The translations under genes were made by a program, and so were the position numbers. The notes beneath the pieces are model-generated. The model did not search any database. It saw only the letters and a program-made list of their open reading frames with translations, and was not told the origin of the DNA. Below, piece by piece: positions 3,571 through 33,320 of a stretch of 39,540 bases of DNA. Numbering within the stretch: the stretch's first letter is position 1; each line of letters begins with the position of its first letter. Source of the DNA: an uncultured Lachnospiraceae bacterium (lineage in GTDB: Bacteria > Bacillota > Clostridia > Lachnospirales > Lachnospiraceae); NCBI GenBank assembly GCA_947588845.1, contig CANQAR010000031.1:1-39540 (forward strand), written 5' to 3'.

Positions 3571-3597
3571 TGTCACAGGACGAATTTTCCTGTGAAT
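3571..3597. repeat. Intergenic repeat B, palindrome module
   Basis: TCACAGGA (3573-3580) and TCCTGTGA (3588-3595) form a short palindrome 30 nt after the DAHP synthase stop. The same module is complete at 33170-33196 and present as a half-copy at 32045-32054. Confidence 0.6.
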
Positions 3598-3615
3598 CGA
3601 GTTGGATGCGGCTTT

Positions 3616-3764
3616 CCCTCCTGCTCGCCCGTGCGGCCCGGTGCTGCGTCAGCAACTGATTTCCATGTGTGGGCGTGATTGAGCAGGAGGCGGTTTTTCC
3701 CTCCTGCTCGCCGCGCGGCCCGTGTGCTGCGCCAGCAGCTGTTTTCCTTACACGGGCCTGCGCA
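3616..3764. repeat. Intergenic repeat A, two tandem copies
   Basis: Copy 1 (3616-3690) and copy 2 (3699-3764) share the series cctcctgctcgcc, gcggcccg, tgctgcg.cagca.ctg, ttcc..., acggg, cctgcgc. Copy 2 can fold through GGCCCGTGT pairing with ACACGGGCC. Related copies lie at 6015-6098 and 7818-7880. Small open frames here are by-products of the repeat. The rest of 3544-3959 holds the terminator at 3762-3810 and repeat B next to xerD; I see no gene in it. Confidence 0.75.
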
Positions 3765-3810: not shown

Positions 3811-3884
3811 ACATTCTGTTCTCCTCAGTCTGTTTCATTCTCAATTCCCCGGATTTCTCTGCCGTTCAAAACCTTCCTCCGGAG

Positions 3885-3959
3885 GATGCGCACAAATTTG
3901 AAACGGAAAATGCCGCTTGACCGGCGCAAATTCGGCGCGGGGAATGAACAGAACGAAAA
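3885..3959. repeat. Intergenic repeat B, inverted copy abutting xerD
   Basis: Contains cacaaatttgaaacggaaaa, tgccgcttga, caaattcggcgcg and gaacgaaaatcac, the reverse complement of the block at 33236-33300. It ends at the xerD stop codon (3960-3962), so the repeat forms the immediate 3' flank of the gene. Confidence 0.6.
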
Positions 3960-4844
3960 TCACATCCTGGGATGTACCTGCTCATACATGTTTCGCATAC
4001 GTCCGATATGCAGGCCCTGGTAGATCTGCGTCGTCGATACATTGGAATGACCAAGCATCTCCTGGACAGATTTGATATCAGCGCCGTTTTCCAGCAGATG
4101 CGCCGCAAAACAATGACGCAGCGTATGAGGAGTTATCTCCGCGTAAATCCCCGCTTTCCTCGCATACTGCTTGATCAGTTTCCAGAAACCCTGCCTGCTC
4201 ATGGGATTTCCGGAACAATTGACAAACAGATACATCTGCCCTTCCTCTTTCAAAAGTGCTTCTCTTCCTTGTTTCATATAGCGTTCCAGAGCTTCCTTCG
4301 CGCTGACGCCAAAGGGAATCACACGCTCTTTTTCTCCGTCCCGGCAAATCACATAATTCATCTTCAGGCTGACATCCTTCAGCTTCAGAGAAATCAGCTC
4401 GGACACTCTCATGCCTGTCGCATACAAAAGCTCCAGCATGGCACGATCCCGCAACTCTTTCGGGGAATCTCCCGACGGCTGTTCCAGAAGCCTCGTCACC
4501 TCTTCCGCAGTCAGGACATCCGGCGCTTTCTTGTCGATATGTGGCGCCCGGATTGTCTCCGTCGGATCATTCTCCATCTTGTTCTGACAGCAGATATACC
4601 GAAAAAAAGCTCTCATCGACGCTACATTCCTTGACACAGTAGCCGCGGACAGCCCTTTTTTCTCAAGATCTGCAAGATAGGACGACAGATTCCGCGGCGT
4701 AACTCCTGCAAGAGAATCAACTCCTGACTCACTTAAATACATTTCCAGTCTTTTCAGATCGCGCTCATAAGAAACCACCGTACTGCGCGACGCATTTTTT
4801 GTGTTTTCCAGATAATCCAGAAACAACGGTATTTCCAGCTCCAT
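3960..4844 (-). CDS. xerD: Site-specific tyrosine recombinase, XerD type
   Basis: 294 residues, the normal XerC/XerD length. Residues 1-90 are the SAM-like N-terminal DNA-binding domain; the rest is the catalytic domain. The catalytic set is complete: Arg146 (ATGMRVSEL), Lys172 (DGEKERVIP), His240 and Arg243 (HTLRHCFAAHLL), His266 (GHSNVSTTQIY) and nucleophile Tyr275. The motif has Cys244 where Ser is most common. The ATG at 4844 follows GGGGAG. XerD-type enzymes resolve chromosome dimers at dif with a partner recombinase. The neighbouring spoIIM-like gene upstream matches the spoIIM-xerD order known from Bacillus and Clostridia, which favours XerD over a phage integrase. No mobile element surrounds it. 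Confidence 0.87.
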   Translation of the reverse strand: MELEIPLFLDYLENTKNASRSTVVSYERDLKRLEMYLSESGVDSLAGVTPRNLSSYLADLEKKGLSAATVSRNVASMRAFFRYICCQNKMENDPTETIRAPHIDKKAPDVLTAEEVTRLLEQPSGDSPKELRDRAMLELLYATGMRVSELISLKLKDVSLKMNYVICRDGEKERVIPFGVSAKEALERYMKQGREALLKEEGQMYLFVNCSGNPMSRQGFWKLIKQYARKAGIYAEITPHTLRHCFAAHLLENGADIKSVQEMLGHSNVSTTQIYQGLHIGRMRNMYEQVHPRM

Positions 4845-5923: not shown

Positions 5924-6014
5924 AGATCGTTCCCGTTTCTTCTTTCTTCCATTTTATTGCCCGCATGATCCAAATCATGCACAAATTTTGTGAATACCGG
6001 AAGGGACTGCGATC

Positions 6015-6098
6015 GAGCAGGAGGCGGCTTTTCCTCCTGCTCGCCGCGCGGCCTGCATGCTGCGCCAGCAGCTGATTTCCATGTGCGGGCCTGCGCAT
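6015..6098. repeat. Intergenic repeat A, third copy
   Basis: Starts gagcaggaggcggcttttcc and continues with the shared tgctgcgccagcagctgatt block, ending gcgggcctgcgcat. It lies three bases beyond the rny terminator, in the downstream direction of rny. Confidence 0.75.
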
Positions 6099-6100
6099 AC

Positions 6101-7784: not shown

Positions 7785-7817
7785 GCAAATGTGACCGGGT
7801 TTTTATCAGTTTATTTT

Positions 7818-7880
7818 TCCTCCTGCCGCGCGGCCCGTGTGCTGTGTCAGCAGCTGGTTTCCTTACACGGGCCTGCGCAT
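7818..7880. repeat. Intergenic repeat A, fourth copy
   Basis: Contains cctcctgccgcgcggcccgt, tgctgtgtcagcagctggtt and cacgggcctgcgcat. GGCCCGTGT and ACACGGGCC can pair. It starts about 34 bp upstream of the rny -35 box and ends 7 bp from the BMP-operon terminator. Confidence 0.75.
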
Positions 7881-7885
7881 AGAAT

Positions 7886-7931: not shown

Positions 7932-8007
7932 TTGCGCCGCTCAGGCGGCATTTTTCCGCTTCAAATTCGTGCACGTCTCCACTTCGTTCCGGTCGGCGCT
8001 GGACATT
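7931..8007. repeat. Intergenic repeat B at the 3' end of the BMP operon
   Basis: gccgctcaggcggcattttt, cttcaaattcgtgcacgtct and cacttcgttccggtcggcgc match 33250-33316. It fills the space from the terminator to the permease stop codon. Confidence 0.65.
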
Positions 8008-19281: not shown

Positions 19282-20970
19282 TCACGCAAGCGCCACCCTG
19301 CACCGCTTTTTATAACACGCGATCCCATACTTCAAGATCTTCTCCACCCCATCGTCCTCCAGATCATCCTCATATCCGGTATGCTCAATCTGCCTCAGCG
19401 CTTCCTCACACGCCCTCTCCAGATCCCCGTCATGCGCATATTTCACTTCGATAATAATCCCCATGTCCCCCGTGTCCGGCTCCGCCAGGATGTCCGCATA
19501 TCCTTCTCCCATCTCGCGGTTCGAGGTGACTCCCCACCGACTCTTCACTCCCAGGATCCCAAGCAGCACGCCATGATAGAAGTTCTCCTTCATTTCCTTC
19601 CTCACGGCTGTGTCGCGGATGCTGATCGTCCTTCTCAGGTAATCCGTGAAGATCCGCTCTACATTCTCCGCCTCCCCGTTTCGCAGGGCATCACAGAAGC
19701 GGTTCAGCGTCTCCCCGTCCTCCCGCACGTTCTCCTTGAAATACTCCATGATCTGCGTCACAAAGATGTCGCGCACCGCCAGATTGGGAATTGCCAGCTT
19801 CATAATCCTTCCCTCTGGCTTCCCCCTTTGAGTCAGATAGCCCGTCGTAAAGAGCAAGCTCCAAATGTTGTCGACCGTCTGGTATATCTCCGGGTAAGTC
19901 AGTTCCTGCCGGATCTCCTTTGTGACGGTCCCACCTTCTACCAGACGCTCGATCTCCCGCTTGAGCGTCGCCGCGTTTCCCGTTTCCTGAATAAAGCGCC
20001 TCACTGCGTCATTGCTGCTCGTGTTGATCCAGTAATTCTCCGGCTGCGCGTCTCTGTCACCCAGTAAAGAATCGCAGTAGTTCAGAACATCCCACGGACA
20101 GTAGACATCCACATTTCCAAAGTGATAGCCGTCATACCACTCTCTGGCCGCATGATAGCCGTCCGGATAGCCATAATACTCCAGAAGTTCCTTTACCTCC
20201 GCATCCGTAAAACCGAAATACTCGTCAAAATGCACATCCGTAATGGAACGGACCTTCAGGTTGTTCAGCCCGGTAAAGATACTCTCCTTTGAGATCCGCA
20301 GACACCCGGTCAGCACCGCGAACTTCAGGCTGCTGTTCGTCTTCAGCGCCTGCCCTAGAAAACTGCGGATCAGGGAGATCATCCGGTCATAGTACCCGTT
20401 TGCGTGGGCTTTCGCCAGAGGAACATCGTATTCATCGATCAGCAGGATCGCTTTTGTACCATGATGCTTCTCCAGCAGTTCTGACAACATCTTCAGACCG
20501 TTGCCAAAGACGCCTTCGCTCATATTATCATCCAGAAGTTTTCGGTAGTCTGCTTTGTCCTGTTCACTCAAAGCATCACTGTTCAAAAGATACTGCATCT
20601 TTCCCGCCGCGCTTTTCAGGGTCATCGCCGCCATTTCGAACGCCGTCTCATAGGTACGCGCGTCGATCCCTTTCAGAGAGATGAAGACGACCGGATATTT
20701 CCCCATATATTCCTCACAGAGCCCCTTCTCCCCCGCGATCTCCAGCCCGTCAAAAATGCTTTTATCCCCCTCCAGGGAGAAAAAATGCTCCAGCATGCTC
20801 ATGTTCAGCGTCTTCCCGAATCGCCGCGGACGGGTGAATAAATTTACTTCTCCCCAGTTGTTAAGCAGATCGCGGATCAGTCCGGTCTTGTCAACGTAGT
20901 AAAAATCGTCAGAACGAAGTTTTTCGAAATTTTCAATCCCGATCGGAAGTTTCTTCCTGGACATCTTCAT
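19282..20970 (-). CDS. AAA-ATPase-like protein with C-terminal PD-(D/E)XK nuclease domain
   Basis: 562 residues from the ATG at 20970 (AAAGGGGGT upstream; family members start close to the KLPIGIENF motif). The N-terminal AAA-ATPase_like domain shows the variant P-loop RPRRFGKT (47-54) and Walker B LLIDEYD (176-182). The C-terminal domain fits the PDDEXK_9 nuclease fold: GYADIL (Asp493) followed by IEVKY (Glu508, Lys510). This family is multi-copy and abundant in gut Bacteroidetes and Clostridia, and its biological role is unknown; a link to mobile elements or defence has been suggested only by its domains. A longer reading to 21093 lacks a comparable RBS. Confidence 0.85.
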   Translation of the reverse strand: MKMSRKKLPIGIENFEKLRSDDFYYVDKTGLIRDLLNNWGEVNLFTRPRRFGKTLNMSMLEHFFSLEGDKSIFDGLEIAGEKGLCEEYMGKYPVVFISLKGIDARTYETAFEMAAMTLKSAAGKMQYLLNSDALSEQDKADYRKLLDDNMSEGVFGNGLKMLSELLEKHHGTKAILLIDEYDVPLAKAHANGYYDRMISLIRSFLGQALKTNSSLKFAVLTGCLRISKESIFTGLNNLKVRSITDVHFDEYFGFTDAEVKELLEYYGYPDGYHAAREWYDGYHFGNVDVYCPWDVLNYCDSLLGDRDAQPENYWINTSSNDAVRRFIQETGNAATLKREIERLVEGGTVTKEIRQELTYPEIYQTVDNIWSLLFTTGYLTQRGKPEGRIMKLAIPNLAVRDIFVTQIMEYFKENVREDGETLNRFCDALRNGEAENVERIFTDYLRRTISIRDTAVRKEMKENFYHGVLLGILGVKSRWGVTSNREMGEGYADILAEPDTGDMGIIIEVKYAHDGDLERACEEALRQIEHTGYEDDLEDDGVEKILKYGIACYKKRCRVALA

Positions 20971-21049
20971 TTTGCCAAACCCCCTTTCATTTCTCATGTT
21001 TATATCCATTCCTTTCGCTTTGCTCAGGCATAAAACATTATGAGATTTT

Positions 21050-21439
21050 TTACTTACCGCCCACTGTCTGCAGATGCATAAGCTTCTCTTCAAGCTCCCG
21101 TATCTTCCGCTCTGCTGCTTCCGCTCGGATTTTCTCCCTGTTCGCCCGGTTCCTTTCCCTGACTGTATTTACACGTTCTTCCGCTCTTCCTTCTTTTCTT
21201 CCTTCCTCTCTGATCCTGTCCATCACTTCACACATGATTCTCTGGCCTCCTTCTTCTTTCTTTAAATATCTCACTCTTTCTGATAACGCCCCCTGGCTCA
21301 TGTCTTCTGGATCCGCTGTCAGAAAATATTTCATCAGTTTCGCTGTCTCCGTCCCGTCATCCACCGCCGCGTTCACATACAGGATATGCTCCCCGTCCTC
21401 ATACACCGGTCTTTCCTTGTATGTCTGACCTGTCCTGAT
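21050..21439 (-). pseudogene. Truncated Rpn/PD-(D/E)XK family transposase-like gene (C-terminal part)
   Basis: The frame encodes a segment reading KERPVYEDGEHILYVN, then ALSERVRYLKKEEGG and a charged C-terminal helix (REEGRKEGRAEE...). These match the end of Rpn-family recombination-promoting nuclease/putative transposase proteins, which are normally about 300 residues. The nuclease core (catalytic D...ExK) is absent. In-frame similarity continues upstream of the first GTG (21406) to about 21439 without a good start or RBS. I read it as a decayed gene. It sits 80 bp before the AAA-ATPase-like gene, downstream of a good promoter. Confidence 0.6.
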
Positions 21440-24363: not shown

Positions 24364-24768
24364 TTATATATGCAGAACCTCCGGCTCATGCGTAAAGGAG
24401 CTGAACGTCGCTTCCGCGTCTTTGAAATAGAAGACCTGCGTATTCCCGTCGTCCGCGGCATACATTTTCTGCAGGGAAGGATAGGCGTCCAGCATGGACT
24501 GTCTTGCTTCCACACGGTCATCCTCGACCAGCTCACCGGCCACACGCAGCCATTCTCCCTTCATAAACGCGCAGATCTCAGCCTTCGGGTTCGCCAGAAG
24601 CTGCTTTGAAACGCTCTTTACCTTGCCGGTCTGAATATACAGTTTGTCCTCAAACACATGCGCCGTGCCAAAAGGACGCACTCTGGGCTGATCTCCCTCC
24701 ACCGTCGCAAGATAATATACATTTGCTTCCTTCAAAAAACTGACTACTTTTTCCATGTTCTTATCCAT
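24364..24768 (-). CDS. Pyridoxamine 5'-phosphate oxidase-fold (flavin-binding) family protein
   Basis: 134 residues from the ATG at 24768 behind GGAGGT. The short split-barrel fold is recognisable from FLKEANVYYLATVEGDQPRVRPFG at the N-terminus, the LYIQTGKVKSVSKQLLANPKAEIC block and WLRVAGEL. Members bind FMN or F420; many in Clostridia are annotated only as pyridoxamine phosphate oxidase-like and act on unknown substrates. True PdxH proteins are longer, so vitamin B6 synthesis is unlikely. It has its own promoter at 24812-24840. Confidence 0.85.
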   Translation of the reverse strand: MDKNMEKVVSFLKEANVYYLATVEGDQPRVRPFGTAHVFEDKLYIQTGKVKSVSKQLLANPKAEICAFMKGEWLRVAGELVEDDRVEARQSMLDAYPSLQKMYAADDGNTQVFYFKDAEATFSSFTHEPEVLHI

Positions 24769-24811
24769 GACTGTACCTCCCATTTCTTTTTTGCATGTCT
24801 GATTTTTTTTA

Positions 24812-24840
24812 ATTATATGCTTTCGCAATGCAGGATTCAA
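24812..24840 (-). promoter_or_regulatory. Promoter of the PNPOx-fold gene
   Basis: On the minus strand: TTGAAT (24840-24835), 17-bp spacer, TATAAT (24817-24812), 44 nt before the ATG. Confidence 0.65.
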
Positions 24841-24862: not shown

Positions 24863-25510
24863 TTACCGTCGTTTCAGCTTCCCCCATACTTTTTTCATCA
24901 GACCTTTTTTCATATCTTTTCCTGCCAGTATGGAAAACTGCATTTCATCTCCTGTTATCTGTGAACCCATAAGGTTTTCTATAAACTCAAAATACCCATT
25001 TGATCCTGCCTGTTTTTCCCAGATGTCTATGGACTCTTTAATTCTTAACAGGCACATAACCGGTTCTTTATAATATTCGTGGAGTTTTTCCGGATCGGTC
25101 TGGTCCCCGAGAATCTTTCTGATATCCTCGTTTGTAAAGGGATCAAACGCCATTAACAATGCCTGTTCCAGTTTCGCGGTATCTTCATCACGGAAATTTT
25201 CCACATCATAGTTCTCCCCCGTACACCGGTTTTTTATATCAAAGAGCACGAGCGCAATTGCCTCCCGCAAACGGCGGCTGTTTGATTTCGGGTTCGCCCG
25301 ATGTATCTTCAATGCGTTGCCTTCCATTGGGAAAAGCATCATTTCATGGCCTTCCTCTTCTCCTTTTTTAATCTTTCCAAACTCTTTCTCCATCTGGGAA
25401 TAAATTTTCTCAAACTGATACCTCTGCATTTTCTGGTTACTCCTTCCTGTCTCTTGTAATAATTTCTGTTTTCTCCGCTCCTGTTCTTTGGTGTATGTGG
25501 TTCCCTTCAT
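24863..25510 (-). CDS. Unrecognised 215-residue protein, fourth gene of the SMC-like operon
   Basis: I do not recognise this protein. It is soluble, highly charged and probably mostly helical. Residues 1-55 are rich in Lys, Glu and Gln; a central part (about 78-180) reads like a helical bundle (LREAIALVLFDIKNRC, LEQALLMAFDPF, YKEPVMCLLRIKESIDIW); the C-terminus is strongly basic (KKGLMKKVWGKLKRR). It has none of the Toprim or DUF2220 features expected of a JetD/MksG nuclease and is about half that size. The ATG at 25510 lies 10 bp after the jetC-type stop codon and has no good RBS, suggesting translational coupling. An internal ATG at 25429 with GGAG ten bases upstream is an alternative start. 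Confidence 0.7.
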   Translation of the reverse strand: MKGTTYTKEQERRKQKLLQETGRSNQKMQRYQFEKIYSQMEKEFGKIKKGEEEGHEMMLFPMEGNALKIHRANPKSNSRRLREAIALVLFDIKNRCTGENYDVENFRDEDTAKLEQALLMAFDPFTNEDIRKILGDQTDPEKLHEYYKEPVMCLLRIKESIDIWEKQAGSNGYFEFIENLMGSQITGDEMQFSILAGKDMKKGLMKKVWGKLKRR

Positions 25511-25520
25511 TCAATGATCA

Positions 25521-28500
25521 TTAAGCATTTCGACTCCCAATCCCCCCTTTCACCAGCCCTTCCACCGCGTTCGTGTACCGGCCGGTCATCACAAGGCTCA
25601 CCGTCGACTGGATAAACGAGCCGATGCTGCTGATCTTCTCCGGCGGGGCGGCGTAAATCACCTGAAACTGATTTTCTTCCAGATATTTGACCATCTGTTC
25701 GATGCGCTCCCGTGAGAGCGCGGAGAACGCCTCGTCGATAAACGCCAGCCGCGCGCAGCAGACGTTTCTCGGATAGCACTGCAGCAGGCTGGCCGCCAGA
25801 ATGATAAAATACGGCGTCTGTTTTTCCCCGTTGCTTGCCGACCCCTGTTTCTTCGAGAGATCCGCCACCACCTCGTCGCTGCCTTGACGGCTCACGATCT
25901 CCATGTCATAGGAAAAGTATTTGCGGTAATCTGTGTACTGCGACTCATCTTCTTCATCGAGAATCATCGCCATGAATTCCTGGATATCGTGCTCCATCTC
26001 CTCGTCATCCCGCGCGGAATTCATATAGACTTCCGGCGAATTCATGTAATTCTCCAGCTTTCTGCATATATTGAAAAAGACAGCGCGGTCCGTTTTCTCT
26101 TTCATGATAAACTTATAGGTGTCATTCCCGAACGGAATCTGCTTCAGTTCCCGGTTGATTGAGTCAATCTCCGCCCTCGCTTCGCGGATCGTCTCATTAA
26201 TTTCCGCGACAAAGTCATTCATAAACGCGCTTTCCAGCTTCACCGCCTGCTCCTTAAGCTGCTGGTGCGCCTCCTCAATCCTGATGTTGGCAATATCCCG
26301 GTACTGTTCCCGGTAAAACGGGATATAGGCGACACCTCTCCTGCTCATATCCAGATCCGCCAGTCTGCAGTACTCAAGCTGTACGCTCTCGAGCTGACTC
26401 ACACACTCAGACAGATCACTGCGCTGCTTCGCCACTGTCTTCTGTGTGATCACCTGCCGGGAACCTCTCTTCTCCTTCAACTTCTCATACTCTTCAATCA
26501 TCGGCCTTTTCAGATCCATGTGCTCCCGGCATTTCTCCTCATACTCTTCCCGCAGCATGCGGATATTGTCCGAAAGCGCTTTTCTCGCCTCTTCCTGGGA
26601 AGACATTTCGGATCTGCATTTCCCGATATCTCCCACAACCGCATCCCGCTGTTCTTTTACCTGCTCATATTCCCTGCGGGCATTCTCCCTCTCCTGAAAA
26701 ATCGTCATAAAGTCCGGATTTTCCCGGATCTCTCTGATATTTTCCCGGACATTTTCCCGCTTTTGCCGTGCCTGGGCAAGATGCGTCCCCGCGAGAAAAT
26801 CATAATTCTCCTGCCGCCAGTCGATCGCTGCAATTTCTTTCCTCCAGCGACGGTTCTGATCCATTTTCCTTCGGTTCAGGTCACGCTCTGCCGCCAGTTT
26901 TCCCCGCTCCTGCTCCGCTTTCTCCAGCTGACGTCTGACGGCGTCCGTTCCAAGGCAGAACTCCGTCTTTTCAATATCCATACAGGCCGCGGCGTAACCT
27001 TTCGCCAGCATTCCATTCTGCATCAGCCCGCCTTTTGGATATTCGTGCAGTTCCTCCAGGGTATCACACAGATGAATCCCGTTCAGCAGATAATTTGCGT
27101 ATCTCCTCGCGAAAACATTCGGGATATCAAGAACCGCGGCCGCGGAGCCTTCTGTGATCTCCGTATCGGGAAGCTTATCCGTAATGACGACATTCACTTT
27201 ATATATCTTATGTTTCATCAGAATTTTCATCGCTCTGTGACAGTATTTTCCGTCCACAATGAGAAAATACCGCTTCCTGCCAAGAAATGTCTCGATGGCC
27301 GCGCGCCATCCGGCATCTGTGATCCCGCGCACCAGTTCTGCAAATACCCGCACCTCTGCATGGATCCCCTGCCGCTCCAATTCCTCGCTGATCACCTGTT
27401 TCGCGCGCTGTACTTCCCCGGGAAATACCAGACGGTTCGCTTTCAGGGCCCGGATCCGCTCATCCAGTTTCTCAATCTGATGTTCCAGATCCCTGACAGC
27501 ATCCCTGAAATGAACTCCATCGGCTTCCAGAATCTCGTCCTGCTGCCGCACCATGGACGCAAGTCGAAGAAATGTCCCGACCTTTTCATCCTGGTTGTCC
27601 GTCTCAGACGCAAGTTCTCCGAGAAGCTTCCGGTCTTCCTCCGAAACGGAAAGAAATTCCTTCATCCACCGCATCATCTCCGCAATCTGCAGCTGAAGCC
27701 CGATCACCTTCGCCAGGCGGCTCTCATATTTCTCCACATCCCGGTCAAGCTCCGCCTCCTGTCTTTCAAGCGCATGCAGACTCTCTGTCATACCGCGGAA
27801 GATATCATTGTTCTCCGCGATCCGGTAACGTTCTCCTGCCGCTTCATACTTCGCGTCAAGCTCCGCGCGCCTGTCCTCCAGCGTCTTCTGTCTGTGCTTT
27901 AAAGTCTCGATCTTCAGCTGAAAGCCTTCCTCCTGCACCTCCTTCTCCTGAAGTTCCTGATAACAGAGCATCAGTTCCCGGATATGAAAACTACGCAGTT
28001 TGTTCTCATATTCCGTACTTTTCTTTTCAACCTCCTCCAGCTTCGCGCGGCTGCTTTTCAGATTGTCATAGATCGCCCGGATCCGCTCAAACTGACTTCT
28101 CTGCTCGCGCAGTTCTTTCAGCGACTCGACAGGCCCCGGTTCCAGCACACATTCCTGAATAAACTGATCAATGTTATTCTCCGGATTGAACGCCATCATC
28201 TTGACAAGCTTGGAGCGGTATTTCGCGGCGTTGCAGCGCAGTCCCAGCGCGCGCAGCAGCTGTTCCACGCCGCGGTCTCTGCCCAGAAACTCTGCAGATT
28301 TCAGAACTCTTCCGTTCACGGAAAGTCCGCTGCGCGGGGTAATCTTCAGGATCCCTCCTTCTTCCCGGACAAAATTCATGTCCTCGATCCCGGCATCCCG
28401 GCAGATAAACCAGCTCCCCTTCTGAGAAGTCTCATTTGCCGACTCGATACAGACACCGACGACAAGGCTGGACTGCTCGACCGGCGACCAGAACTCCATC

Positions 28501-28802
28501 GCAATGTAGCTGACCACCTCGCCGGTCCGAAGATAACGCTTGTCCCCATTGCTTCTCGTGTCGCCGCGGACATACGCGAGCACCGTCCGGTCACGGTCCT
28601 TCGCCGCCTTGTTAAACTGCGTGTTGCCGGTCAGAAGATAAGTCATCGCGTCCAAAATCGTCGATTTTCCGCTGCCGTTGACCCCTGTAAACAGTGTGGA
28701 CCCTTCCAGACGGATACAGATATTCTGAAACCTTGACCACTGCACTAAAAGCAGCTTCGTCGCCGTTTTGCGGTTAATCTGCCGGTTCATCTGTCTGTTC
28801 AT
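25521..28802 (-). CDS. SMC/MukB-like ATPase, JetC/MksB type
   Basis: 1093 residues from the ATG at 28802 (GGGGGAGG six bases before). Walker A GVNGSGKST lies at 40-48. Long coiled coils run at about 230-480 and 650-960 around a hinge-like globular segment (about 490-640). The C-terminal head has the signature SNGEKQTP (about 990) and Walker B LAFIDEAFSALSRERIEQM (about 1019-1037). This is the MukB/MksB/JetC layout: the protein dimerises and extrudes DNA loops with the kleisin and KITE-type partners encoded upstream. In Wadjet it recognises and helps cleave plasmid DNA with JetD; no JetD is seen here. It overlaps the JetB-type gene by 29 bp. Confidence 0.88.
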   Translation of the reverse strand: MNRQMNRQINRKTATKLLLVQWSRFQNICIRLEGSTLFTGVNGSGKSTILDAMTYLLTGNTQFNKAAKDRDRTVLAYVRGDTRSNGDKRYLRTGEVVSYIAMEFWSPVEQSSLVVGVCIESANETSQKGSWFICRDAGIEDMNFVREEGGILKITPRSGLSVNGRVLKSAEFLGRDRGVEQLLRALGLRCNAAKYRSKLVKMMAFNPENNIDQFIQECVLEPGPVESLKELREQRSQFERIRAIYDNLKSSRAKLEEVEKKSTEYENKLRSFHIRELMLCYQELQEKEVQEEGFQLKIETLKHRQKTLEDRRAELDAKYEAAGERYRIAENNDIFRGMTESLHALERQEAELDRDVEKYESRLAKVIGLQLQIAEMMRWMKEFLSVSEEDRKLLGELASETDNQDEKVGTFLRLASMVRQQDEILEADGVHFRDAVRDLEHQIEKLDERIRALKANRLVFPGEVQRAKQVISEELERQGIHAEVRVFAELVRGITDAGWRAAIETFLGRKRYFLIVDGKYCHRAMKILMKHKIYKVNVVITDKLPDTEITEGSAAAVLDIPNVFARRYANYLLNGIHLCDTLEELHEYPKGGLMQNGMLAKGYAAACMDIEKTEFCLGTDAVRRQLEKAEQERGKLAAERDLNRRKMDQNRRWRKEIAAIDWRQENYDFLAGTHLAQARQKRENVRENIREIRENPDFMTIFQERENARREYEQVKEQRDAVVGDIGKCRSEMSSQEEARKALSDNIRMLREEYEEKCREHMDLKRPMIEEYEKLKEKRGSRQVITQKTVAKQRSDLSECVSQLESVQLEYCRLADLDMSRRGVAYIPFYREQYRDIANIRIEEAHQQLKEQAVKLESAFMNDFVAEINETIREARAEIDSINRELKQIPFGNDTYKFIMKEKTDRAVFFNICRKLENYMNSPEVYMNSARDDEEMEHDIQEFMAMILDEEDESQYTDYRKYFSYDMEIVSRQGSDEVVADLSKKQGSASNGEKQTPYFIILAASLLQCYPRNVCCARLAFIDEAFSALSRERIEQMVKYLEENQFQVIYAAPPEKISSIGSFIQSTVSLVMTGRYTNAVEGLVKGGIGSRNA

Positions 28803-29454
28803 CTGATTCCTCCCCCTCATCAGTCGGATCCCCGCCGTCCTCGTCTGGTTCCTCCCACATTCGCTTTGCCGTCACGCTGACAAAACGGTCAAATTCAGCC
28901 GGGTCAAGCGCAAACTGCAGAGACGGGTACAGCAGAATCCGGCAGTCTTCCTCCCCGATTCTCCCCTTTACATCGACCAGGCTGAATCTTGAGAAAAGCG
29001 CCAGGGCGCCGCTCACCGTGCTCTTATCGATCTGATCCCGGATTCCGTATTTCTCCAGCTCAAACCGCAGTTCCGTAACCGAAATGCTCACTGTCCTGGA
29101 TAAGTTTCCCTCCCGCAGCCTGTCCGCATACAATGTCCAGAGACAGCAGAGCAGGATGCTCTCCGCCTTTTTGAGCACGTAATGATTGATCTGCATCCGG
29201 CCGTTCTCACTTGCTTCCCGGCAGTTGCGCAGCATGACCACGCCGTTGTCGCGGTCCACAGAAATGTCAAACCCGATATATTTAAAATAAAGGGAAAACA
29301 CATCAGGGTTCCTGGAAATAAAATAATAAGCCCGTTTGCTGTCCTCATCTTTGTCTCTCACAATAAACGTTGATTTCAGCAGCCTGCGGCAGGCCTTCTG
29401 GAACAGATCCCGCTCCGACGATGTGTATAGTTCCCATATTTCTTCCATTCCCAT
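28774..29454 (-). CDS. JetB/MksE-like winged-helix subunit (DUF6063-like)
   Basis: 226 residues from the ATG at 29454, eight bases after AGGAGG. The body looks like a two-winged-helix (KITE) protein of the MukE/MksE/JetB kind: KACRRLLKSTFIVRDKDEDSKRAYYFI and later ELRFELEKYGIRDQIDKSTVSGALALFSRFSLV. Such subunits bind the kleisin and regulate the SMC heads. The last 26 residues are almost all acidic or polar (EEPDEDGGDPTDEGEES...), and their codons overlap the start of the JetC-type gene. The DUF number is from memory and should be checked. Its place between JetA- and JetC-type genes supports the call. Confidence 0.75.
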   Translation of the reverse strand: MGMEEIWELYTSSERDLFQKACRRLLKSTFIVRDKDEDSKRAYYFISRNPDVFSLYFKYIGFDISVDRDNGVVMLRNCREASENGRMQINHYVLKKAESILLCCLWTLYADRLREGNLSRTVSISVTELRFELEKYGIRDQIDKSTVSGALALFSRFSLVDVKGRIGEEDCRILLYPSLQFALDPAEFDRFVSVTAKRMWEEPDEDGGDPTDEGEESDEQTDEPAD

Positions 29455-29545
29455 AACTTCTTCCTCCTGTCACGACCGGCCTGGTCCAAAACGAACCAGA
29501 CAAGATGACCCTGTAAATCCCGTTTTCCTTCTGTCATAACGTCTT

Positions 29546-29593
29546 GATTTATAGGGAACGACAAAACGATTTTCGTTTTGCTCGTTCCCGGCG
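29546..29593. repeat. Intergenic repeat B hairpin inside the SMC-like operon
   Basis: GGGAACGA-CAAAACGA (29554-29569) pairs with TCGTTTTG-(C)-TCGTTCCC (29573-29589): 16 bp with one bulge and a TTT loop. The same hairpin lies at 33201-33236. It occupies the 189-bp gap between the JetA- and JetB-type genes. There is no proper U-run, so it is more likely a processing or stability element than a terminator. Confidence 0.7.
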
Positions 29594-29643
29594 GCATACA
29601 TGCAGACTGACTGTGATACCCTGCAGTACAATCCCCGGTTGTT

Positions 29644-31050
29644 TCAGATTTTTTTAATAATTTCAAATCTGCGCAGCAGCAGATTCTGCGTCTCAAGATA
29701 CCCGTCCAGTGCCCGCACCTCGTAGCCGTTTTCCTGTCCGTACGCCACAGCCGACAGCGCGCAGAGAAGATCTCTCCGGCTCTCCATCGGCAGCGCATCA
29801 CTCTCCAGCTTTCTTCCGGTTCCCAGCGCGTTCTCAAGATACTCTTTCATCTTCTCTTTGGAATAAGGATTGAACGCCTCTCTCTCCTGAGAAGCTTTTG
29901 CTTTCGCGATATCCTCCACCGTCATCTTCTCAATCTGCGCGGACGTCTCATTCTGCACCACCTGCTGCCTGCGCGGAAACCGGACAGAATCCGTGTCTAT
30001 AAATTCATGCGGTTCAAGCAGAAACAGACCGGCCGCCTCCGCGGGAAGCTCCTCCTTCCAGCCGATCTCGTCCATCTCTTCGGCTAGATAACGGATCGTC
30101 CGCTCGATGCTTCCGCGGATATTTAATTCCCGGTTCCGGAGAAATCTCGCCCTGCCGACCGCAATCTGCAGATAAACATTGATCTTATGCCGGATTTCCT
30201 GCATGATCTGGTCATAATCCTCCGTCAGAAAACGGCGCGTCGTCTGCAGCATCTCAAATACCTGATCCTCCGCCTCTTTTTTGCTCAGCCCTTCCTCCTC
30301 GGCACATCCTTTCACAAGCCGCTCAGACAGCCTGCCGTCACTTTGTATATCCATCAGCTTTCCCTTGATAAACGTCCGGTAGATATGGATATTCTGCTGT
30401 TTTGTCAGACGTGCGTATTCCCGCACAAAATTTCCCTCACAGTATTCAATAATGTTTTCTGTCAGACTCTCCAGCGTTTCCTCCCGTACCATCCGCTCGA
30501 TAATTTTTTTGATGAAGGTGGACAGCCGCTTCAAAGCCTTCGCCAGCATTTTCGCGTTGCGGTAGATATTTTTCAGCCCTTCAGCATAGGGATCCTGACT
30601 CCACTGTTCCCCACTGCGCAAAATGCTATAGATATTAAAAATATAACTGGAAAATTCCTCGCGCTCCGGCTGCCTGAGCTGCTCCAGAAACTCCGCCAGG
30701 CGGATTCCCTGCTCCGTCATAATGATATGTTTTTCATACGTGGCGTCGTCGCTGTCTTCCTCAAGCCATCCGATCTCCTTCGAACAGAATCTGCGGAGAA
30801 CGGCGCTGGCCATATCGCTGTAATTCTTCCTGTCTGTCAGCTCTTCTCCGAGTTCTTCCTCTGTCACATGGTTTTCCAGCAGGTAGACGGCAAGCGCATC
30901 GCGCAGCTGATTCCTCGCAATACGGTATGAGATCTCCCTGTCATACTGGTTATAGATGATCTGGAGACAGTCAGAATAGATACGGTTGCTGCTGCCGCTC
31001 GCAAGATTGTTAAAAAAACCGGACGGAATTATATCAAATAAATTTACCAT
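29644..31050 (-). CDS. JetA/MksF-like kleisin subunit (DUF5716-like)
   Basis: 468 residues. The opening MVNLFDIIPSGFFNNLASGSSNRIYSDCL and the long helical body (ERMVREETLESLTENIIEY, RTFIKGKLMDIQ, ...HKINVYLQIAVGRARFLRN) agree with what Clostridial genomes carry as JetA-family/DUF5716 proteins. In Wadjet and Mks complexes this subunit is the kleisin that bridges the two SMC heads and binds the KITE dimer. ATG at 31050 behind AGAGGAAAA. It is the first gene of the operon JetA-type, JetB-type, JetC-type, unknown 215-residue gene. Family assignment rests on recall of the N-terminal motif and gene order. Confidence 0.8.
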   Translation of the reverse strand: MVNLFDIIPSGFFNNLASGSSNRIYSDCLQIIYNQYDREISYRIARNQLRDALAVYLLENHVTEEELGEELTDRKNYSDMASAVLRRFCSKEIGWLEEDSDDATYEKHIIMTEQGIRLAEFLEQLRQPEREEFSSYIFNIYSILRSGEQWSQDPYAEGLKNIYRNAKMLAKALKRLSTFIKKIIERMVREETLESLTENIIEYCEGNFVREYARLTKQQNIHIYRTFIKGKLMDIQSDGRLSERLVKGCAEEEGLSKKEAEDQVFEMLQTTRRFLTEDYDQIMQEIRHKINVYLQIAVGRARFLRNRELNIRGSIERTIRYLAEEMDEIGWKEELPAEAAGLFLLEPHEFIDTDSVRFPRRQQVVQNETSAQIEKMTVEDIAKAKASQEREAFNPYSKEKMKEYLENALGTGRKLESDALPMESRRDLLCALSAVAYGQENGYEVRALDGYLETQNLLLRRFEIIKKI

Positions 31051-31197
31051 TCATTTTTCCTCTGCATGATACTGGAATCAAAAAATGCCGTACGGATTGT
31101 TCCGCGCTCTGCACGCCCGCAGTCCTGCCCGGCCTTTGGAACTCACAGGGGCCAAAAGACACCGGAACAGTCGGAGACGGCAGTGTTTCCCCGTAAC

Positions 31198-31203
31198 ATT
31201 ATA
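31198..31203 (-). promoter_or_regulatory. Possible -10 box of the SMC-like operon
   Basis: On the minus strand TATAAT (31203-31198) in the context TTTTGCTATAATG, about 150 nt before the JetA-type ATG. The best -35 candidate at 17-bp spacing (TTCCTT) is poor. Weak evidence. Confidence 0.35.
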
Positions 31204-31306
31204 GCAAAACAGGACAGAAAAAGGAAGAAAAACGCGCTCCGGCACAGGTAAAATTCCGCAGACTGTTTTTTATTTCATACATAAATGCATAAAACCAGAA
31301 AAAAGA

Positions 31307-31335
31307 TTGTCAAGTTTCAATTTATTTACTATAAT
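31307..31335 (+). promoter_or_regulatory. Promoter of the orphan 138-residue gene
   Basis: TTGTCA (31307-31312), 17-bp spacer, TATAAT (31330-31335). It diverges from the SMC-like operon. Confidence 0.8.
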
Positions 31336-31381
31336 CAGACTAATTTCAACACAATTTCGACATCATTTCAACTGGTTTTTA

Positions 31382-31406
31382 TTGTACCATTACTGCGGCG
31401 GTACAA
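31382..31406 (+). promoter_or_regulatory. Hairpin in the leader of the orphan gene
   Basis: TTGTACC (31382-31388) and GGTACAA (31400-31406) form a perfect 7-bp stem with an 11-nt loop, about 40 nt downstream of the predicted transcription start and 30 nt before the RBS. It could be an operator or RNA structure; no function can be assigned. Confidence 0.4.
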
Positions 31407-31452
31407 CAAATTCATCAATCTGCGGTCATTTTTTTACAAGGAGGGAAAATCT

Positions 31453-31869
31453 ATGGAATGGAAAGACAGATGTTTCAACGCACTCGACGCCAAAAAATTA
31501 TTTGATGATTCCGGGCACCGGACACGCTTCAAGGAACTGACGGACTGCTACGCGTCATATCCGTTCTTCACGCCAGGCCTCTGTAAATGCATGTATCTGT
31601 CGGCCATGGATGACGAACATTTCTGTGTCATGCTGGAGACGCTGACCGATCTTGCCCTCGGAAAGGACAAGACCACGGAAGAGATGCGGATCAAGGGAGA
31701 CGCACTCGTGGAAGAACAGACCACGGAGGAATACTACGTCTATCTTCTGTCGAACGCTTTTCTCGACGACGTTCCGTTCCATCTGGATGAAACTGTAAAA
31801 TTATCGCCCGCGTTTGACCACATTATCCGGCGCGCTCTGCTCGCGGCGGCTGTGATCGATTCCATCTGA
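31453..31869 (+). CDS. Conserved-looking hypothetical protein, 138 residues
   Basis: I do not recognise the family. The ATG at 31453 follows AAGGAGGG at ideal distance; the frame is open further upstream but without coding character. The product is soluble, mixed acidic, probably helical, with four Cys in the first half (CFNAL, TDCYASY, GLCKCMY) and one more at HFCVM. No membrane helix and no known motif is visible. It has a near-consensus promoter, a leader hairpin and a strong terminator, so it is a well-expressed single gene. It is divergent from the SMC-like operon, so a functional link is possible but unsupported. Confidence 0.8.
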   Translation: MEWKDRCFNALDAKKLFDDSGHRTRFKELTDCYASYPFFTPGLCKCMYLSAMDDEHFCVMLETLTDLALGKDKTTEEMRIKGDALVEEQTTEEYYVYLLSNAFLDDVPFHLDETVKLSPAFDHIIRRALLAAAVIDSI

Positions 31870-32076: not shown

Positions 32077-33090
32077 TCAGGATCCTGAGATCGTACCTCC
32101 ATTTGGATGCAGCACCTGTCCCGTCATATAGGAAGCGTCCTCCGATGCCAGGAACACATAACACGGCGAAACCTCACAGGGCTGTCCTGCCCGCATCATC
32201 GGCACCTTCGACGTTTTGCATCCAAATGTGGTGACTTCTTCCGCGGAAAAGGAAGCCGGGATCAGCGGCGTCCAGATGGGCCCCGGAGCGACCGCGTTGA
32301 CCCGGATGCCCTGTTCCGCCAGCGACAGAGCCAGAGAGCGGGTGAGCGCCACGATCGCTCCCTTGGTCGCGCTGTAGTCGATCAGCTGTTTATTTCCTTC
32401 ATATGCCGTGACCGAAGTTGTATTGATGATCGAATCCCCCTCCTTCATATGCGGCAGCACCGCCTGTATCACATGGAAAAAAGAGATAATATTATTCTGA
32501 AACACCAGATCAAGCTGCTCCGGCGAAATATCCAGAATACTGTCCTGTACAAACTGAACCGCATGATTGTTCACAAGAATGTCAATCTTTCCGAAACATT
32601 CCAGCGTCCTGTCCACGCACTGCTGCACAAAACTCCGCTCCTTCAGATCTCCCTGCAGCAGCAGACATTTGCCGCCCATCTGAAGAATTTTCTCCTCTGT
32701 TTCCTTCGCGTCGCGCTCCTCATCGTAATAGACAAGCGCCACTTTTGCGCCTTCCCGCACAAAATCATAGGCGACAGAACGTCCAATTCCACTGTCCCCG
32801 CCCGTGATAAGCGCTGTTTTGTTCTCAAGCCGCCTTCGGCCTGCCGGACGTTCCGAGACCGGTCTCGGATTCATCACATACTCCAGCCCTGGCTGTCTGT
32901 CCTGATGCTGCGGCGGAAACACGACCGGACACAACTCATTTTCACTTTCCAGCACAGGCGGAACCGGCTGATTCATGCCTTTGCAGCCTTCCTCATTTTT
33001 TCTCCGCTCGCAGGAAGAGGGGCTGTTTCCGCACACATCTGTGTTCCCGCCTGCGTTTCCATTTATTCTGCCATATGGATAATTCTGCAT
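32077..33090 (-). CDS. Short-chain dehydrogenase/reductase, YhxC/YghA-like
   Basis: 337 residues from the ATG at 33090 behind AGGAGGT. Rossmann fold motif TGGDSGIGR (96-104), NNHAV (174-178), active-site Ser226, Tyr239 and Lys243 (YSATK). The PPQHQDRQPGLEYVMNPRP segment just before the Rossmann fold is a hallmark of the general-stress SDR group (YhdF, YhxC, YghA). Those proteins are NAD(P)-dependent with poorly known substrates. The first 50 residues are an extra segment with four Cys (at 20, 27, 36 and 54) not usual in the family; its role is unknown. The gene stands alone. A half-copy of the repeat B palindrome lies at 32045-32054. Confidence 0.88.
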   Translation of the reverse strand: MQNYPYGRINGNAGGNTDVCGNSPSSCERRKNEEGCKGMNQPVPPVLESENELCPVVFPPQHQDRQPGLEYVMNPRPVSERPAGRRRLENKTALITGGDSGIGRSVAYDFVREGAKVALVYYDEERDAKETEEKILQMGGKCLLLQGDLKERSFVQQCVDRTLECFGKIDILVNNHAVQFVQDSILDISPEQLDLVFQNNIISFFHVIQAVLPHMKEGDSIINTTSVTAYEGNKQLIDYSATKGAIVALTRSLALSLAEQGIRVNAVAPGPIWTPLIPASFSAEEVTTFGCKTSKVPMMRAGQPCEVSPCYVFLASEDASYMTGQVLHPNGGTISGS

Positions 33091-33169
33091 ATATACACCT
33101 CCTGCCGCTATCATATGCGCAGGAAGTGTTTTTTATACCTTAAAGCTGCCCAGTGGCAGGTCGTCTGCA

Positions 33170-33320
33170 TGTCACAGGAAATTTCGTCCTGTGACATATA
33201 GGGAACGACAAAGCGATTTTCGTTTTGCTCGTTCCCTGCGCCGAATTTGTGCCGCTCAAGCGGCATTTTTCCGTTTCAAATTCGTGCGCGTCTCCACTCC
33301 GTTCCGGTCGGCGGGTGCAC
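33170..33320. repeat. Intergenic repeat B, fullest copy
   Basis: Three modules in order: palindrome TGTCACAGGA/TCCTGTGACA (33170-33196); hairpin GGGAACGA...TCGTTCCC (33201-33236) with an inner CAAAGCGA/TCGTTTTG stem; and a block with gaatttgtgccgctcaagcg, cattttt and caaattcgtgcgcgtctcca (33237-33300). Parts of it recur at 3571-3597, 3885-3959, 7931-8007, 29546-29593 and 32045-32054. It lies directly behind the DUF362 gene. Confidence 0.75.

Follow-up and report, generated by a model that had tools for sequence, protein, structure and literature searches.

A type I Wadjet operon without its JetD nuclease gene in a Lachnospiraceae genome: an intact motor that most likely lost its cutting subunit

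What does a Wadjet-type SMC operon do in a genome in which no gene for its nuclease can be found? This question is raised by a jetA-jetB-jetC locus in the window, by which we mean the whole stretch of 39,540 nucleotides that was analysed. According to passages of PMC10586767, JetABC in Wadjet provides shape and size sensing and JetD is the cutting subunit; cleavage depends on the whole complex, on ATP, and on a functional JetC ATPase. Passages of a Corynebacterium paper (PMC7083940) set MksBEFG, which is directed at plasmids, against Pseudomonas aeruginosa MksBEF, which is directed at the chromosome. A further published passage speaks, if only mildly, against the idea that the JetD-bearing form acts on the chromosome. 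For Pseudomonas MksBEF, passages of a review propose a non-cutting, DNA-looping role that arose via "loss of JetD".

Table 1. Features of the jet locus and its surroundings (window positions).
Feature	Position	Strand	Evidence and remarks
jetA, kleisin-type subunit, 468 aa	29644..31050	minus	PF18982 8e-100; PADLOC JetA1 6e-70
jetB, KITE-type subunit, DUF4194, 226 aa	28774..29454	minus	PF13835 3e-32; PADLOC JetB1 1e-72
jetC, SMC ATPase, up to 1099 aa	25521..28820	minus	PADLOC JetC1 3e-172; SbcC_Walker_B/AAA_29
jetD slot	24888..25520	minus	Content from blastn synteny and junction reading: 188-aa gene (window), JetD (L080), about 10 bases (L079), about 140 bases (L081)
188-aa orphan protein gene	24863..25429	minus	Most likely gene model; in the vacated jetD slot; last residues enter flank DNA common to L079
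PNPOx-type flavoprotein gene	24364..24840	minus	Marks the far side of the slot; PF01243 7e-9; matched in L079, L080, and L081
Divergent orphan gene before jetA	31285..31869	plus	Flank, outside the system; common to L079 and L080

The window carries jetA, jetB, and jetC as intact minus-strand frames in this order (31050-25521), and thus the three subunits of a type I Wadjet motor in one operon (Table 1). A preliminary description of this DNA had called the three genes complete and ordered and had stated that the ATPase keeps its motifs, and both claims are borne out: Pfam and PADLOC matches agree, and JetC contains GVNGSGKST, SNGEKQ, and FIDE, which we take to be its Walker A, signature, and Walker B motifs, so that ATPase activity is predicted at the motif level. 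The ATPase residues are kept in the window and in all 31 other aligned JetD-less loci. As the jetC frame overlaps jetB by 47 bases, the real start of jetC may lie slightly downstream. The genome has JetA at one place only, and we confirm that the locus is a type I jetA-jetB-jetC operon without a nuclease gene.

A Toprim-domain JetD nuclease was found neither in the locus nor elsewhere in the genome, as the Pfam model JetD_C (PF09983) and a 15-row JetD alignment both gave no match in the assembly (5.06 Mb), whose 280 contigs and 96.93% completeness leave a small residual possibility that JetD has moved to an unassembled place. This whole-genome search had been proposed in the preliminary description, which had rightly seen no JetD behind jetC or before jetA; the genes at these two positions have no Pfam or NCBIfam match over the curated cut-off, and no PADLOC or PHROGs match of theirs falls below E 0.01. 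The same alignment found no JetD in any of ten JetD-less genomes (G000, which is the window's genome, and those of the loci that we number L079, L081, L092, L093, L096, L097, L126, L130, and L142; the L096 contig ends 636 bases past jetC) and recovered the gene in both JetD-bearing controls. We also considered, and rejected, the presence of a degraded JetD in the slot: tblastn with 51 JetD proteins against these ten loci revealed no convincing remnant. Its only two matches, both weak, fall within L079 jetC (E 0.001) and, in L093, on the opposite strand (E 0.010). Without JetD, plasmid cleavage by the window locus is not expected.

The four nearest loci, namely the window, L079, L080, and L081, share the order jetC, slot, PNPOx gene, and JetA of the latter three is 91%, 84%, and 83% identical to that of the window. 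Of these four, L080 alone contains an intact JetD in the slot, a protein of 408 aa with the conserved stretches ENLTSF and HFGDIDPDG (Toprim motifs). From the far edge of the slot onward, the DNA is common to the window and L079. In subunit types (JetA1, JetB1, and JetC1), gene order, and orientation, the window locus equals type I Wadjet (JetABCD, also termed MksBEFG or EptABCD), and the orthologous L080 with the same neighbours is a complete JetABCD system, the difference being that the executing nuclease is missing from the window's locus and assembly. Among named genomes, a scan recovered 65 relatives of JetA, and 47 of these loci have JetD and an unbroken jetC. The earlier view of a Wadjet/MksBEF-type operon without a nuclease stands. 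However, a recognisable JetD at orthologous loci, which the preliminary description had named as refuting evidence, does occur in the syntenic L080, and 46 other close loci also carry JetD; the window locus is therefore best seen as a Wadjet from whose slot JetD was most likely lost, and ancestral absence is the less simple reading because 47 of the 65 loci have JetD and the tree is rooted on JetD-bearing rows.

We consider it fairly probable that the locus encodes an intact type I Wadjet motor whose jetD was most likely lost from the slot behind jetC, and that this motor is predicted still to load on and loop DNA without cutting it. In such a course of events, jetA, jetB, and jetC would have stayed open when jetD was lost, JetABC alone would load on DNA and extrude loops, and selection would keep it for a role of its own, which may be a condensin-like handling of host DNA or a non-cutting compaction of plasmids.

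Some further differences among the compared stretches may be recorded here. An SDR-type dehydrogenase gene (named by eye) at 32077-33114 of the window is missing from the otherwise syntenic L079, which makes it a small indel beside the jet locus, and in L077 (5645-8211) JetD is placed before jetA, not behind jetC. An intergenic repeat of about 50-100 bases, dispersed and with a strong potential to form hairpins, occurs in the window at 3595-3677, 3683-3764, 3876-3961, 6012-6099, 7814-7881, 7932-7980, 29548-29593 (a partial copy between jetB and jetA), and 33197-33295; it is also present in L080 (8701-8815) and L081 (6731-6850) and was not found in the L079 stretch.

The gene behind jetC had been described as an unrelated protein of 215 residues at 24863-25510. 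It is unrelated to JetD, but the start was set too early: all 31 aligned rows have Met 28 of this frame, 19 of 30 homologues begin at it, and AAGGAG lies slightly upstream, so that the gene most likely encodes 188 aa. Between this gene and jetC, the minus strand shows neither a promoter-like nor a terminator-like site, and the gene is therefore likely transcribed from the jet promoter. Of 716 scored candidates, 612 are homologues of the protein at E <= 0.001, and its AlphaFold model is all-helical (pLDDT 84), with VIA-align rows within the range of chance helical likeness.

The preliminary description had suggested that a different effector could stand in for JetD, and the 188-aa protein could in principle be such an effector that replaced JetD and works with JetABC, given that its gene lies in the exact slot and on the operon strand with no promoter-like site of its own and no terminator in between. 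We nevertheless regard this as very improbable. Among 299 family genomes, just 6 contain the protein, and the window is the single case with jetABC beside it; no jet genes were found in the surroundings of its relatives read in six genomes (L067-L071 and L147, two with partial copies). Within the close set, it is present in 3 of 47 JetD-bearing and 2 of 10 JetD-less genomes, the window's being one of the latter two (1 of 9 when it is set aside), and it is absent from the genome of L079. The model had no Foldseek match among solved folds at E <= 0.001, and the protein has no nuclease family match. As a JetD substitute it was rejected for being rare, absent from the sister locus L079, and not tracking the loss of JetD, and the effector suggestion is weak, as its relatives in the other genomes read lie away from jet genes. 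We read the protein as an unrelated gene that landed in the slot, its position alone favouring a role with JetABC.

An origin as a phage gene was likewise discarded, as a viral scan gave no relative of the 188-aa protein and no PHROGs match reached an E value below 0.06; a viral scan for JetA was equally without a relative. Elsewhere in the window, positions 19282-21093 encode an AAA-ATPase-like protein with a PD-(D/E)XK_9 nuclease domain. In L070, the 188-aa gene is split into two pieces with a relative of this protein between them, an arrangement that suggests a gene that is mobile or prone to insertions.

The window is not the only locus of this kind. Nine close loci are without JetD (the window, L079, L081, L092, L093, L126, L097, L142, and L130), and on a tree of 25 joined JetA-B-C rows this distribution requires five changes, four of which are forced by well-supported branches. 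Holding the nine rows as a single clade was rejected (p-AU 4.9e-10), and uniting the window, L079, and L081 in one loss was not (p 0.26), so that, as far as a sequence tree can tell, the JetD-less state needs four to five separate changes. The DNA right behind jetC is common to L092, L093, and L126 only, which fits one old loss in these three and is the clearest sign of such a shared event. In L097 and L142, the stretch just behind jetC is unlike and common DNA starts 261 and 862 bases further on, and a single common loss is therefore not proven for this pair. Binning error is a poor explanation for all of the cases, as L092 (Petralouisia muris NM01_1-7b), L097, and L130 (Brotaphodocola catenula CLA-AA-H274) are named strains. 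The loci were collected through JetA, and wholly decayed loci would accordingly be missed.

We sampled 299 family genomes, of which 85 contain JetA and 102 contain JetD_C. Ninety JetA places were examined, and in 56 of them JetD_C is present on the same strand no more than 20 kb away; ten were left out (five at contig ends, three with too little DNA behind jetC, and two without jetC). JetD is missing nearby from 24 of the 80 assessable loci, a call for which at least 2.5 kb of DNA behind jetC had been read without JetD_C. The genomes of these 24 loci have a strong JetD elsewhere in 6 cases, a weak JetD_C match elsewhere in 3, and none in 15. For the six loci with a strong JetD elsewhere in the genome, help in trans is possible, and the window's assembly, at 96.9% completeness, could in principle hide such a gene. 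That JetD or another nuclease serves the window locus from elsewhere is nonetheless hardly credible to us, as neither the Pfam model nor the alignment found JetD in its genome, and the alignment found none in that of L079. Many genomes of the family also encode a protein (about 335-450 aa) that matches JetD_C weakly and in part, and JetA is often missing from these genomes.

In a JetC tree of 91 rows, a distant clade of 19 rows with long branches comprises 15 rows without JetD, 3 undetermined rows, and 1 with JetD. The latter is L076 (3239-14919), where about 7 kb of DNA with several genes separates jetC from the JetD gene behind it. The distant clade L039-L054 resembles the window in having no JetD in the locus and varied ordinary genes behind jetC (10 checked), and the one locus tested, L044, has the PADLOC types JetA1, JetB1, and JetC1; it differs from the window in being far from it in the JetC tree and may be an old lineage of JetD-less JetABC. 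A common new effector as the fourth gene of other JetD-less loci was considered as well, and all-against-all families gave none in common. The genes behind jetC in ten checked JetD-less loci encode a GntR regulator, a glycerol-3-phosphate antiterminator, DUF1456, a MYG1 family protein, a methyltransferase, NAGPA, FeoB, a nucleoside hydrolase, a metallo-beta-lactamase fold, and Met-tRNA synthetase.

It was also conceivable that such loci are decaying remnants, in which JetD was lost recently, the system is idle, and jetABC is simply not broken yet. The window and its sister L079 have different contents in the slot, indicating that the site is still changing, and the JetD-less rows are slightly more changed at conserved columns: at 233 columns that are invariant in 31 distant JetD-bearing loci, they have on average 3.9 changes, compared with 1.9 in close JetD-bearing rows (the window and L080 change 2 each). 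However, jetA, jetB, and jetC are open and of normal length in all nine close JetD-less loci despite the four to five separate changes. The Nei-Gojobori dN/dS ratios within JetD-less pairs range from 0.043 to 0.144 (five pairs and three genes, hence 15 comparisons), and those within JetD-bearing pairs from 0.021 to 0.087 (six pairs, two comparisons being undefined through saturation). Neutral drift over the L097-L142 distance would have left tens of stops; in simulations without selection at 0.30 substitutions per site, about 41 stops are expected in the jet genes, and none of 500 runs was stop-free. The long branches of the distant, mostly JetD-less clade also speak against mere remnants, and we regard this explanation as unlikely. 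Judged from these sequences, JetABC in JetD-less loci is strongly constrained, and the slightly higher dN/dS and the larger number of changed conserved columns hint at mild relaxation. We also asked whether JetD-less loci have shed the N-terminus of JetB, which would point to a lost contact with JetD, and rejected this, as the N-terminus is kept; this is a weak test, since the IFDR motif of the review is unrecognisable here.

Between the window and L079, jetABC is more diverged than its surroundings, with dS values of 0.55-0.62 in the three genes and 0.14-0.36 in seven flanking genes. Along the sequence, this rise tracks the jet genes: identity is 82-94% in most 500-base steps of jetABC (window 25521-31300), 93-96% in the upstream flank, and 91-94% in the downstream flank. 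Such a local rise looks like allele exchange. As jetABC dS exceeds that of the flanks, recombination or a faster rate blurs any dating, and the divergence of jetABC between the two loci may be older than the loss of JetD.

An exchange of alleles would be expected of an immune gene, which is consistent with a further explanation, namely that JetABC alone may defend against plasmids without cutting, by looping or compacting incoming plasmids and thereby silencing or destabilising them, in analogy to Smc5/6, which passages of a review describe as acting on viral circular DNA. The motor and the operon are the same as in Wadjet. On the other side, cutting requires the whole complex and JetABC gives shape and size sensing according to passages of PMC10586767. 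We consider such a defence rather improbable.

Another close counterpart is P. aeruginosa MksBEF, a condensin without a nuclease, with which the window locus shares a Muk-like set of SMC, kleisin, and KITE subunits without a nuclease. The two differ in that JetB fits DUF4194 (112 bits) and matches the MksE family PF21980 weakly, at 21.2 bits and thus below the cut-off of 27, and in that JetD-bearing relatives are still close to the window, so that the loss looks young; a chromosome role of the window locus is predicted only.

The usual bacterial condensin, Smc-ScpAB, has the same plan of SMC, kleisin, and KITE subunits as JetABC. The window locus differs from it in lacking a ScpA-type protein, as JetA belongs to PF18982. 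ScpA itself was detected in eight of nine genomes, not in that of L079, and in the window's genome with a single match (5e-30) on another contig (C3). A housekeeping condensin, as the preliminary description had put it, is a live option with respect to condensin-like work, but the locus is not the sole candidate condensin of its genome, and JetABC would be an extra rather than the main one. The step from a kept motor to a condensin-like role is one that we infer.

As a more tentative proposal, which we deem possible but would not yet rely on, recurrent loss of JetD may represent a switch from a plasmid-cutting immune machine to a non-cutting looping machine, with several independent young cases in Lachnospiraceae: the window with L079; L081; L097 with L142; L092 with L093 and L126; and L130. 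Loss of JetD is already in print for Pseudomonas, and what is added here is several young, independent losses with a kept motor in one family. An open-access search, which is no proof that the matter is unpublished, found no literature on repeated JetD loss with kept JetABC in Lachnospiraceae. For annotation, the finding is a warning against listing jet loci of only three genes among plasmid defence systems. If the proposed switch is true, the Lachnospiraceae cases would replicate the step proposed for the origin of MksBEF- or MukBEF-type condensins from Wadjet, and the close pairs with and without JetD, some of them in named strains (L092 in Petralouisia muris and L130 in Brotaphodocola catenula), would allow this step to be tested directly.
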